Positions 3,642-7,054 of a DNA stretch of 7,088 bases are shown here, in pieces; the stretch's first letter is position 1; each line of letters opens with the position of its first letter. A program made the position numbers and the translations under genes. The stretch lies in assembly GCA_001803565.1 (NCBI GenBank), contig MHDQ01000304.1, forward strand, positions 1 through 7,088, in the 5' to 3' direction. Origin of the DNA: Nitrospinae bacterium RIFCSPLOWO2_12_FULL_45_22. Lineage in GTDB: Bacteria > 2-12-FULL-45-22. The notes under the pieces are model-generated. The model saw only the letters and a program-made list of their open reading frames with translations. It ran no database searches and was not told the origin of the DNA.

Positions 3642-3700
3642 TGCTAACGCTCCGGCTAACCCCGCCGCTGTAAGCGGTCGGGTTGAGCCGGTGGTTAGGC
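3642..3700 (-). other. attC site of cassette C1
   Basis: The R' core is GCTAAC at 3643-3648 and R'' is GTTAGGC at 3694-3700. CCGGCTAACC pairs with GGTTGAGCCGG with a surplus G on the right arm. An inner CCGC/GCGG stem closes a TGTAA loop. Confidence 0.92.
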
Positions 3701-3970: not shown

Positions 3971-4076
3971 AACAATCTCCTTTTTGGATAGCTATATCCC
4001 TGTAGATGTCTGCGGTAGTACTCCAATGAAAACCGCTTCTCCCGAAGAAGTTGGATTGGTACTACCTAAAGCATAA
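3789..4076 (+). CDS. Hypothetical rightward (inverted) gene in cassette C1
   Basis: A 95-residue ORF, MPSNSDLLKFAIRIDEVES onward, ending EEVGLVLPKA. AAAGGAG stands exactly 6 bases before the ATG. About two thirds of codons begin with a purine by hand count, typical of a true frame. GAA, GAT and AAA codons are common. The stop is the TAA inside the degenerate R box GCATAAT at 4071-4077. The protein is acidic and soluble, without a signal peptide or known motif. If real, it is transcribed toward the integrase, opposite to the other cassettes, and would need its own promoter. A weak candidate is TTGTTC (3707-3712), 17 bases, then TATGCT (3730-3735). Confidence 0.52.
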   Translation: MPSNSDLLKFAIRIDEVESILCGKDFEREVNKADIFDFLTLVSLTAKTNIGKLGSLKSKSITISFLDSYIPVDVCGSTPMKTASPEEVGLVLPKA

Positions 4077-4158
4077 TGCCGAGTTGAGCGGAATGGCCGG
4101 AGCGTCAGACCGGAGGTCTGTAAGCGCAGGACATTTCCGCTCCAACGATTTGTTGGAG
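4071..4158 (-). other. attC-like site with altered R' box, nearest the integrase
   Basis: It has the complete attC layout: R' position GCATAAT (4071-4077), spacer GCCGA, arm GTTGAGCGGAATG, a central hairpin CAGACC-GGA-GGTCTG (4106-4120), arm CATTTCCGCTCCAAC, spacer GATTT, then R'' GTTGGAG (4152-4158). Two surplus bases lie on the right arm, giving the same orientation as the other sites. On the minus strand the R' box reads ATTATGC where the usual form would be GTTATGC, so the base next to the cleavage point is changed. The site may be a poor recombination substrate. Confidence 0.72.
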
Positions 4159-4215
4159 GCGCGCGAATCAGCGCGCGCCGGAAACAAATTGTTGGAGTTT
4201 ACTCAACTCGGCATT
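4075..4215. repeat. Inverted pair of attC-like sites forming a 141-base palindrome
   Basis: AATGCCGAGTTGAG at 4075-4088 is repeated perfectly in inverted form at 4202-4215. Just inside it, CTCCAAC-GATTT-GTT (4140-4154) matches the reverse complement of AAC-AAATT-GTTGGAG (4183-4197) except at one base. The right part (about 4179-4219) is therefore a shortened inverted copy of the attC at 4071-4158, with the same 5-base spacers, the same ATT in place of GTT, and a TTTA loop. Between them GGCGCGCG/CGCGCGCC (4158-4179) makes an 8-bp hairpin. Confidence 0.75.
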
Positions 4216-4240
4216 GCAGGCGCGCGCAGCGCGCCTGCAA
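4214..4240. repeat. Perfect 12-bp GC-rich hairpin
   Basis: TTGCAGGCGCGC and GCGCGCCTGCAA flank a GCA triloop. There is no T run on either side, so it is not a standard intrinsic terminator. It lies between the array and the integrase promoters. An array transcript started near the integrase would carry it in its leader. Confidence 0.85.
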
Positions 4241-4275
4241 CATATATTAGACAGAAAAAATCTATTACAAAACAC

Positions 4276-4305
4276 TTGACCAAAAACATTATTCAATGAT
4301 ATCAT
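4276..4305 (+). promoter_or_regulatory. Candidate distal promoter of the integrase gene
   Basis: TTGACC (4276-4281) and TATCAT (4300-4305) are separated by 18 bases, five of six consensus matches in each box. The start would lie about 140 bases before the integrase ATG. ATACAG at 4304-4309 overlaps the -10 region and resembles one half of a LexA box, but the other half is poor. Confidence 0.4.
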
Positions 4306-4362
4306 ACAGTTAGAGCATAAGCACCACCTCCCTTGAAAAAAATAACTAATAATATCAACATG

Positions 4363-4392
4363 TTGTAACGACACTCCTGAGCGTAATATAAT
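4363..4392 (+). promoter_or_regulatory. Candidate proximal promoter of the integrase gene
   Basis: TTGTAA (4363-4368), an 18-base spacer, then a perfect TATAAT (4387-4392). Transcription would begin near 4399, leaving a leader of about 50 bases before the ATG at 4451. Confidence 0.5.
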
Positions 4393-4417
4393 AATGCCGT
4401 CTAGCATGACACTGTAA
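4388..4417 (-). promoter_or_regulatory. Weak candidate cassette promoter (Pc) reading into the array
   Basis: On the minus strand, TTACAG (4417-4412) and TATTAT (4393-4388) are separated by 18 bases and point leftward into the cassettes. It overlaps the proximal integrase promoter face to face, as Pc and intI promoters often do. AT-rich sequence makes chance matches likely. Confidence 0.25.
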
Positions 4418-4450
4418 GTTTTGAGTTAACTGCTTGATCTGATTAACATT

Positions 4451-5815
4451 ATGAGCGAAGAAAGCCAAAAACCGACTGAAGCAGCTCAAAAGTTTTGGGA
4501 TGCTTTTAAGGCCTGTGTCGAGGAGAACAGGGTGCCACCTGATCGTTCGCCCTTTTTTGTCAAGTGGGCGCAGGCATATGTTGATTTCTTGCCTGGAAAG
4601 CGGTTGCGAGATCGATCGCGGGAGGATATTGACGCCTTTCTTGCCGACCTGGGTAAGCGTCCAGGCATCCCGGACTGGCAGATAAGGCAGGCCGAACATG
4701 CCCTGAAGATTCTCTATGAGGCCTTTCTTCATAAATATGCCCCGGCTGGCACGACAAAACGGGCAGCAGGGACCGCAAAAAAGAACAGGATCGCGAGCAA
4801 GGCTCATAGGGCCAGCATCTTCCGGGATCGGGTTGTTCCCGGCGAGGTTGAGCGGCTTTTTTCTACCGTGATAGATACTCTGAAGACCGAAATTCGCAGC
4901 CGCCATTACTCGATCCGGACAGAAACAACCTATCTTGATTGGGTGCGCCGTTTCATCGCCTTTCATGGCTACGTGGACCCAAGGGGAATTGATGGGACCG
5001 TGGCGGTGAAGGAATATCTTGATTACCTTGCGGTGGAGAGGGAGGTTGCGGCGAGCACCCAAAACCAGGCCCTCAATGCCTTGGTGTTCTTTTACACTCA
5101 GGCCTTGCAGAAGCCCTTTGGAGAAATGGAGACGTTCGTGAGGGCCAAGCGTCCACAACGATTGCCCGAGGTGTTGACCAGAAGTGAAGTCGAGGCAGTT
5201 CTCGATCAGATGGAAGGGGTGAATTCGCTCATGGCTGGGTTGATGTATGGGGGCGGCCTGCGGCTCATGGAGTGTGTCCGTCTCAGGGTCAAGGACATTG
5301 ACTTCGAACGCTTTCAGATCATGGTGCGTGATGGCAAAGGGCAGAAGGACCGGGTAACGATGCTGCCGGAACGCTTCGCAGTTGCATTGAAGGAACACCT
5401 TATTCGTGTGAAGATCATTTATGAAAAGGATCAGGCCAACGGGGTTCCCGGAGTTTATATTTGGCCGGCTCTGGCCCGAAAATATCCAAAGGCGGCCTCT
5501 GAATGGATCTGGCAATACGTATTCCCCGCCAAGAGCCTTTCGGTTGATCCTCGAAGCGGTACTGTGAGGCGGCACCATATCAATGAAAGCCTGGTGCAAA
5601 AGGCCGTAAAAGAGGCGGCTATGCGGGCCGGTATCAGCAAAAGGGTAAGCTGCCATACCTTGCGTCACTCCTTTGCCACGCACCTGCTTGAGGCGCACTA
5701 CGACATCCGCACTGTCCAGGAACTGCTAGGGCATGCGGATGTTTCCACTACGATGATTTACACCCATGTTCTAAACAGACCAGGCCTCTCAGTAAAAAGT
5801 CCCGCAGACTTCTAA
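4451..5815 (+). CDS. intI: Integron integrase (IntI-type tyrosine recombinase), long form
   Basis: This 454-residue enzyme inserts and excises cassettes by recombining single-stranded folded attC and attI. The catalytic set is complete: R271 (GGLRLME), K296 (GKGQKDR), H402 and R405 ([12 protein letters not shown]), H428 ([16 protein letters not shown]) and nucleophile Y437. Their spacings equal those of IntI1 (R146, K171, H277, R280, H303, Y312) as I recall them. Residues 340-377 ([19 protein letters not shown], then [11 protein letters not shown]) are the insert that separates IntI from XerC/D. Residues 142-240 are the usual core-binding domain. Residues 1-125 are an extension absent from IntI1, its first 95 resembling another core-binding domain, followed by a basic Ala/Lys linker. 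There is no Shine-Dalgarno before the ATG, but an in-frame stop at 4427 excludes a much earlier start. Confidence 0.97.
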
Positions 5816-5923: not shown

Positions 5924-6184
5924 CTAAGGCTTCAAGAAATTCTCCATAGGCAAATCGAATTTTTCGAGTCTCGATTTAACCTCTCCAAAAAGGGGAAAGT
6001 CAAGGAAATAACTTAGATTTCTTGAAGCATCACCGAGCGATCCTACGTAGACCGGATCGTGCAGTTTGTTCGTTTCCACAGCATACGACCGCGTGAGGAC
6101 CTCTTCCTCGCCGCAGCCGAAATCGAATCGTTCCGGACCGACCTCGCCGTACACGCAAGCATCGCTCCCTCCATCCAGAGCCAA
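5924..6184 (-). CDS. Short hypothetical gene or gene remnant downstream of intI
   Basis: An 86-codon frame with good coding character: high-GC third positions and balanced amino acids, for example RSYAVETNKLHDPVYVGSL and FPLFGEVKSRLEKFDLPMEN. The only start giving the full length is TTG at 6184 without a Shine-Dalgarno; an in-frame TGA lies just upstream. A GTG at about codon 11, with GGAGG 13 bases before it, is the alternative. No motif, signal or membrane segment is visible. It converges with intI. The weak start suggests a C-terminal remnant of a longer gene whose front is lost. I do not recognise the family. Confidence 0.45.
   Translation of the reverse strand: MALDGGSDACVYGEVGPERFDFGCGEEEVLTRSYAVETNKLHDPVYVGSLGDASRNLSYFLDFPLFGEVKSRLEKFDLPMENFLKP
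5929..6028. repeat. 12-bp perfect inverted repeat spanning 100 bases
   Basis: GCTTCAAGAAAT at 5929-5940 and ATTTCTTGAAGC at 6017-6028 are exact reverse complements. Between them AAATCGA and TCGATTT form an inner 7-bp stem. It overlaps the 3' part of the short minus-strand ORF. There are no R boxes, so it is not an attC. Confidence 0.6.
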
Positions 6185-6714
6185 GCGATGAATGCGACTT
6201 CATATTACAGATGCTTCCCTTTTCTTTCAAGATGCCAGGCAAATACCGCCTTAAAAAGCAAAACATGGAGGTTCGACTTGTTGTTGCATGCAAACAGATC
6301 GCTGAAGAGTTGAGCAAAGCACCCGCGACCTGCCAGACATTCAAGTTTGGAAACTACCGGCACAAGTCAGGTATCGGTGGCTTCCACCGCATATCCCGAT
6401 GCCTTCATTGCGTCAGATAGTCGCTCAGTTAAAGTCGGCAATCCGCTTCCTCCGCAGGCACGTTGTCGTCCTTGGTGCATAACAAGTTATTCTATAGTTT
6501 CTTAATAACTGCGCACCTCAAGGGGTTCCTTCTGGGCTCTATGGATTAACAATTTATTTTGTCTATCCAGCCCATGATCCCCTGACCTCTTAGATACCCC
6601 TTAAATCGTTATAAAATAACAATATCTCATGACAGATTTTTTTGCAACAATATATTTTAATCCTCCTTTATAACATATCATTTTTAAGATTATATAGAAA
6701 TAGGAGAATCCTAC
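6185..6714. other. Intergenic stretch without a convincing gene
   Basis: Open frames here are short and disagree in strand. On the minus strand a frame reads TKDDNVPAEEADCRL before its stop near 6432, and another ends KASGYAVEATDT near 6367; both could be ends of decayed genes. The part from about 6600 to 6714 is very AT-rich and precedes the integrase remnant, so it probably held that gene's promoter. Confidence 0.5.
6474..6583. repeat. Two adjacent imperfect stem-loops
   Basis: The first pairs GGTGC (6474-6478) with GCACC (6513-6517) and AGTTATT (6485-6491) with AATAACT (6504-6510). The second pairs AGGGG (6521-6525) with CCCCT (6579-6583), GGGC (6534-6537) with GCCC (6570-6573) and TGGAT (6542-6546) with ATCCA (6565-6569). 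Neither is followed by a T run. The role is unknown. Confidence 0.5.
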
Positions 6715-7054
6715 ATGCTGGCTATCCCTTCCACATTACAGGCACAATTTGAAGAATATTTACGAAATAAGGCGATTCCAAACAGCCACTCTTCAAACAA
6801 AACGGGTAAACGGGGCTTCCTGGAAAGCGGAATACTCCCTGCTGGCGGATGAAATCCATGTGCGGCATTATTCTTCCAAAACTCTCAAGACATATAGAGG
6901 ATGGGTGCAAAAATTTCAGACTTTTACGCGCAGCAAGACCCCGGAACTGCTCTTATCGAATGATGTTAAAGAGTTTTTAACATTCTTGGCTGTGAAACGA
7001 AAGGTAGCATCCACCATCACGGCGGGTACTGGCACGGAGAACGAATTTCGATGA
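6715..7054 (+). pseudogene. Decayed N-terminal part of a second integron-type integrase
   Basis: AGGAG lies 8 bases before an ATG at 6715 that reads MLAIPSTLQAQFEEYLRNKA then IPN, the usual opening of a long-form integrase family I remember. That frame soon ends at TGA. The core-binding domain continues in another frame from about 6806 (SWKAEYSLLADEIHVRHYSS, then KTLKTYRGWVQKFQTF and VKEFLTFLAVKRKVAST). This aligns with residues 145-203 of the intact integrase ([21 protein letters not shown] and [18 protein letters not shown]). Most of the first core-binding domain is missing, consistent with an out-of-frame deletion near 6783-6805. Similarity stops after VAST, around 7015, and the frame ends at 7054 with unrelated residues, so the whole catalytic domain is absent. 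It cannot be an active recombinase. Confidence 0.85.

Follow-up and report, generated by a model that had tools for sequence, protein, structure and literature searches.

Between the integrase gene and the first gene cassette of an integron from Nitrospinae bacterium RIFCSPLOWO2_12_FULL_45_22 lies a block of inverted, attC-like sequence, which raises the question whether this block stands in place of the attI site, as a sequence-only reading had proposed, or beside it. The window (the whole stretch of DNA analysed, 7,088 nucleotides) is the entire contig C304 and carries intI (4451-5815, + strand; 454 aa, Pfam PF00589 and PF13495), an attI to the left of intI and a cassette array running leftwards. 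A strict attC scan, with a model made of R'', spacer, L'' with one extra base, L', spacer and R', recovered one attC in the block and six array attCs, all on the - strand (90-149, 608-679, 1796-1853, 2382-2435, 2758-2858 and 3642-3700, the last belonging to the first gene cassette past the block). The spacer between intI and the block (4241-4450) held an intact attI on the - strand, ending ...TTTTTTCTGTCTAATATATG^ at 4241, as aligned to the unoccupied attI of a relative (G447, L259). A promoter-like site directed towards intI (TTGACC-18-TATCAT with an extended -10; 4276-4305, + strand), recognised by consensus match only, was located within the conserved attI region. At the other end of the window, 6749-7054 encoded the N-terminal part of a second integrase-like gene (PF13495, E 3e-13), with its frame broken at the contig end.

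The block proved to be a structured integron element in which two attC sites form a palindrome, and it folded far beyond shuffled sequences on each strand (z -11.3 on the + strand, z -9.9 on the - strand). The attC-like site described at 4071-4158 is real, being the sole strict attC match in the block (- strand; such a match arises in 2% of shuffled blocks). The sequence bore out the shortened inverted copy at about 4179-4219, the 14-bp perfect inverted repeat shared by the two halves (4075-4088 and 4202-4215) and the A^TT at the crossover of both. The spacers, said to be identical, are so on the R' side (CTCGGC in both) but differ by one base on the R'' side (AAATCG and AAATTG). Two further GC-rich hairpins had been placed after the pair of halves; both exist, but only that at 4214-4240 follows the pair, while that at 4158-4179 lies between the halves.

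The element so delimited, hereafter E, is a gene-free stretch of 164 nt on the - strand (4077-4240), beginning with TTGCAGG at base 4240 and closing with ...CTCGGCA at base 4077. It is flanked by the G of attI (4241) and by a TT (4076-4075) belonging to the cassette that follows. Read along the cassette strand, G^ is followed by hairpin A, which begins at the crossover (4214-4240, - strand; TTGCAGGCGCGC-TGC-GCGCGCCTGCAA, 12 of 12 pairs, a palindrome conserved in 17 lineages while its sequence differs), and by an outer arm (TGCCGAGTTGAG; 4202-4213, - strand) pairing at 12 of 12 positions with 4077-4088. Then come the inverted shortened attC half (4179-4219, + strand; R'' GAAAC, AAATTG, TTGGAG-TTTA-CTCAA, CTCGGC and A^TTGCAGG), hairpin C between the two R'' boxes (4158-4179, - strand; GGCGCGCG-CTGATT-CGCGCGCC) and the array-oriented attC D (4071-4158, - strand), whose final six bases, from ^TT onward, are those of the next cassette. 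The inverted half had no match on the + strand in the strict attC scan and was therefore taken as a degenerate attC. Closing E into a circle would make a single palindrome of the sequence flanking hairpin A; circular E would then come very near a perfect dimer of one attC, arranged head-to-head and tail-to-tail, except that one tip is reduced.

The genome of the window carried a second copy of E, 98% identical, in a different cassette array (L003). The two aligned copies agreed from TTGCAGG to CTCGGCA(TTA) and diverged outside. On the cassette strand the G preceding E belonged to an attC in one copy and to an attI in the other, which sets the limits of E at 4077-4240, between G (4241) and TT (4076-4075). 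The relative G447, whose intI was 79% identical to that of the window over its full length, had an attI ending identically (...TCTGTCTAATATATG^TT) without the block; the last ~43 bases were the same in both (...GTCAAGTGTTTTGTAATAGATTTTTTCTGTCTAATATATG^TT), after which G447 ran into another cassette. Two other lineages gave such pairs of filled and empty attI sites: one was formed by the X3 (filled) and Smithella (empty) MAGs, ending ...GGTATATTAATTG^, and one was found within a single genome (G147), where one attI was filled and one empty (...AAGTTCGTATATTAATYG^). E therefore takes the cassette position beside attI and not that of attI itself: in the window attI is intact just beyond the block, from 4241 upward, and E is inserted at G^TT. 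Both of its ends fell at G^TT of attI or attC, in the filled and empty attI pairs as at attC-E-cassette junctions, and neither a target-site duplication nor an insertion outside recombination sites was seen among the copies read. At four loci (L076 5055, L081 8330, L084 6364, L014 2140) an attI-like sequence and E occurred with no intI on the stretch read, as orphan attI sites heading arrays.

Members of the family were sought by BLAST, by scanning 84,980 species for a pattern and with a covariance model (R1). Copies were found in Syntrophaceae, Smithella, bins of other Deltaproteobacteria, a Nitrospira MAG, a Fermentibacteria MAG and further genomes, while a copy in Patescibacteria may reflect Smithella contamination of that bin. 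Of 149 genomes in the order to which Smithella bin_149 belongs, R1 matched 27; of 386 diverse genomes it matched 4. E is a repeat with copies in many genomes, and it recurs precisely at attI or at the junctions between cassettes. About half of 29 pattern matches in genome_contigs (Runella, Chryseolinea, Acidobacteria and others) were set aside on reading as chance matches. The window copy had no match in the plasmid collection, a Smithella copy none in the plasmid or phage collections, and the E pattern none in viral_contigs.

Every copy whose flanks were read lay in array orientation, with its 3' attC oriented like those of the array in the window and in the family, and no inverse-oriented copy was seen. 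Some copies were found far within arrays, and others in arrays that had no intI. The X3 array held six copies, a full E after attI and five others between cassettes, each with a different internal deletion. A short form of ~51 nt (hairpin A and arm B) recurred, which looks like the product of a deletion between direct repeats. One copy (E10_1) had a deletion in hairpin A that put it out of register in the arm tables.

Comparison of the copies indicates a widespread family whose predicted fold is conserved while its sequence changes. Among the 17 lineages compared, hairpin A had 16 distinct arm sequences and the outer arm 13. Watson-Crick pairing within hairpin A reached 94% with the own arm against 52% with the partners of other lineages (the 17 lineages are not fully independent), and within the outer arm 98% against 58% (some arms are related by descent). 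The two halves thus change together, which makes it unlikely that the block is a recombination relic, one of the possibilities raised earlier. The base that follows hairpin A matched the final base of E, as T/A or C/G, in 16 of the 17 lineages; the A^TT at R', found in the window copy and several other lineages where most family members have GTT, is therefore a recurrent state and not decay. A conserved extra-helical G in L'' of the bottom strand has been reported for attC (PMC2727003); this extra base was C in the window copy and G in Syntrophales-type copies and most family members, and the array attC at 608-679 carried the same variant as the E of the window.

The predicted folds also leaned to one strand. 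Integron integrases recombine the bottom strand (PMC2727003), and it was this strand of the window E that had the lower predicted energy, as in an attC (-69.0 against -61.0 kcal/mol for the top strand), as it did in 22 of 23 copies. G-T pairs in the minimum-energy DNA folds numbered 36 on the bottom and 1 on the top strand in the first 12 copies, and 32 and 5 in 11 further copies (68 against 6 over all 23). Mismatches in the first 12 copies were mostly purine-purine in bottom-strand folds, and pyrimidine or A-C in those of the top strand. The array attCs leaned the same way, more weakly (11 G-T pairs against 4). For nearly all copies, folding of the bottom strand was predicted to give a three-way junction, closed by the outer arms, next to hairpin A. 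A stand-alone attC hairpin was less favoured in the minimum-energy predictions than this element-wide structure, so that an active E would need to adopt a different fold.

The integrase of the window has ~135 extra N-terminal residues, in which an N-terminal domain model, built from a set that included E carriers, placed a SAM-like domain at about 15-128; the likeness of this extra domain to SAM-like core-binding domains is weak. Extended forms, with an additional N-terminal domain of ~110 aa, accounted for roughly one in two of the IntIs read from the order of Smithella bin_149. In a tree built from 53 IntIs, a single modestly supported branch (88/59) separated the extended from the canonical forms. 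Wherever an attI-adjacent E had a readable intI (12 loci: the window, L074, L078, L086, L123, L141, L177/L209, L194/L201, L232, L242, L246 and L257), the integrase was of the extended form (12/12); hairpin A was lost at L086, L141 was cut by the contig end, and L177/L209 and L246 were cut. Of the canonical IntI loci, 58 extended far enough upstream, and none of these had an E beside attI; 34 of 44 extended IntIs also had no E there. Ignoring kinship among the IntIs, the association gave a Fisher p of 1e-4 with both surveys pooled and the window left out, 0.006 in the order survey alone, and a weak 0.075 in the diverse survey alone with the window left out. The genome of the window encoded another integron integrase (L156, G000:C243), of canonical length and with no E at its attI.

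The block, about 164 nt long, is probably an integron gene cassette without an ORF that was captured at attI, because it has a normally oriented attC at its 3' end, no gene, and a precise recurrence at attI or between cassettes. E has no ORF where cassettes customarily have one; this feature is customary and not defining, ORF-less cassettes being accepted members (PMC8876359). E would be moved by IntI: its bottom strand, once single-stranded, would fold out, and IntI would cut at the crossover of E (A^TT here) and join it to the G^TT of attI or attC, possibly by way of a circular form. Such a reaction would leave E always in one orientation and often beside attI, and older copies would remain in the array and shed hairpins by deletion. 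Hairpin A and the three-way junction of the outer arms appear to be under bottom-strand selection, the most likely benefit being that the crossover is presented to, or protected for, the extended IntI. Our best guess for the retention of the inverted half is that the element-wide fold may hold the crossover in a state used by the extended IntI or, alternatively, may keep it silent until the strand refolds as attC.

Site-specific insertion in attC is also a habit of IS1111-attC elements and group IIC-attC introns, which carry a transposase or a reverse transcriptase and bring no attC; E shares the specificity for attC sites but, unlike them, has an attC of its own. E could accordingly be pictured as a MITE-like non-autonomous transposable element that targets attI/attC crossovers and is moved by a foreign transposase, given that it is short, palindromic, multi-copy, site-specific and found in a single orientation, and that group II intron pieces lie close to one copy in a cassette array (L048 986-2381, UBA4767). 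We regard this as improbable: the attC is rightly placed and oriented, its L''/L' and extra base are kept by compensatory change, every copy read is inserted exactly at the IntI crossover with no target duplication, and E is associated with one IntI class.

An RNA made from the bottom strand would leave the same wobble bias as recombination of that strand, and some ORF-less cassettes carry RNAs or promoters (PMC8876359, PMC6557892). E might then be a regulatory-RNA cassette read towards intI, like the sRNA-Xcc1 cassettes of Xanthomonas (PMC12444791, PMC2996969), with which it has in common a non-coding cassette part recurring across species. The Clostridiales-1 RNA (RF01699) did match that strand below threshold (best 37.6 bits against a gathering score of 48), with full-length matches of 34.6-37.6 bits on the bottom strand of E at L047, L045 and L048, but was judged a hairpin look-alike, and Rfam gave no match at threshold in the window. 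Nor did the window copy contain any promoter-like or terminator-like site, and no T run followed its hairpins, which leaves a transcription terminator unsupported as well. Copies with deleted hairpins persist in arrays; sRNA-Xcc1 itself is an 88-nt RNA upstream of symE, and its model (RF02221) was absent from the four E-bearing genomes searched (a search without a positive control). The RNA explanation is quite improbable.

Palindrome arms can be kept alike by template switching. Inverted attC dimers might accordingly be by-products, formed repeatedly when a folded attC strand is copied round the hairpin end, with template switching in place of selection holding the arms together; the internal deletions observed at hairpins fit such a process. 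But one layout (hairpin A with a loop of 3-5 nt at the crossover, outer arm, hairpin C, and a conserved AACAAATCGTT-like R''/spacer) recurs in many lineages, in most of them by common descent, and template switching alone would not confine wobbles to one strand, so that this origin is very unlikely. That E substitutes for attI or locks the array as a boundary can practically be dismissed: although it stands first after attI at 12 loci, attI is intact beyond it and found empty in the relative, E also sits within arrays, several copies in one, and in arrays without intI, and most extended-IntI integrons are devoid of it.

ORF-less cassettes are known from oral Treponema and other metagenomes (PMC6557892, PMC8876359), and E resembles them by the missing ORF, the 3' attC and the possible first place after attI. 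Those known are described as carriers of promoters or RNAs, whereas E is an attC palindrome with a conserved fold, tied to one IntI class. The attC of E has the parts of a standard site (PMC2727003), namely R'', spacer, L'' with its extra base, variable tip, L', spacer and R', in array orientation; it departs from it in being preceded by an inverted shortened copy, with which its R' arm can pair instead, and, in the window copy, in its A^TT and its extra base C on the bottom strand. Cassettes of the delta-attI type in class 1 integrons (PMC12901181) likewise bring non-standard recombination sites into the array, but as partial attI sites beside resistance genes, while E has neither an attI copy nor a gene. 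No description of a palindromic, attI-associated, gene-free cassette family was found in a search of an open-access library, and the palindromic kind is read here as probably new among the ORF-less cassettes already known.

Cassettes are usually viewed as carriers of genes, and the family of E is gene-free, with its fold kept while its sequence changes. In a family that keeps returning to the entry site of one integrase class, selection would act on the cassette's own recombination or on the tuning of the platform. Tentatively, and with rather less confidence than in the cassette reading itself, palindromic attC dimers may form a distinct class of integron satellites, which would multiply through arrays without genes by presenting a whole-element bottom-strand fold to SAM-extended integrases, element and integrase having coevolved in several lineages. 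The extended IntIs are a large class, and their substrate rules may differ from those of IntI1 and VchIntIA.

Two loci showed E-like elements in company. At L242/L190 (G531:C31) two different elements of the family lay apparently in direct tandem beside an extended intI, and upstream of an R1 match in L007 (G087), at about 6133-6265, there was another element of the same layout (L257 type) but divergent sequence.
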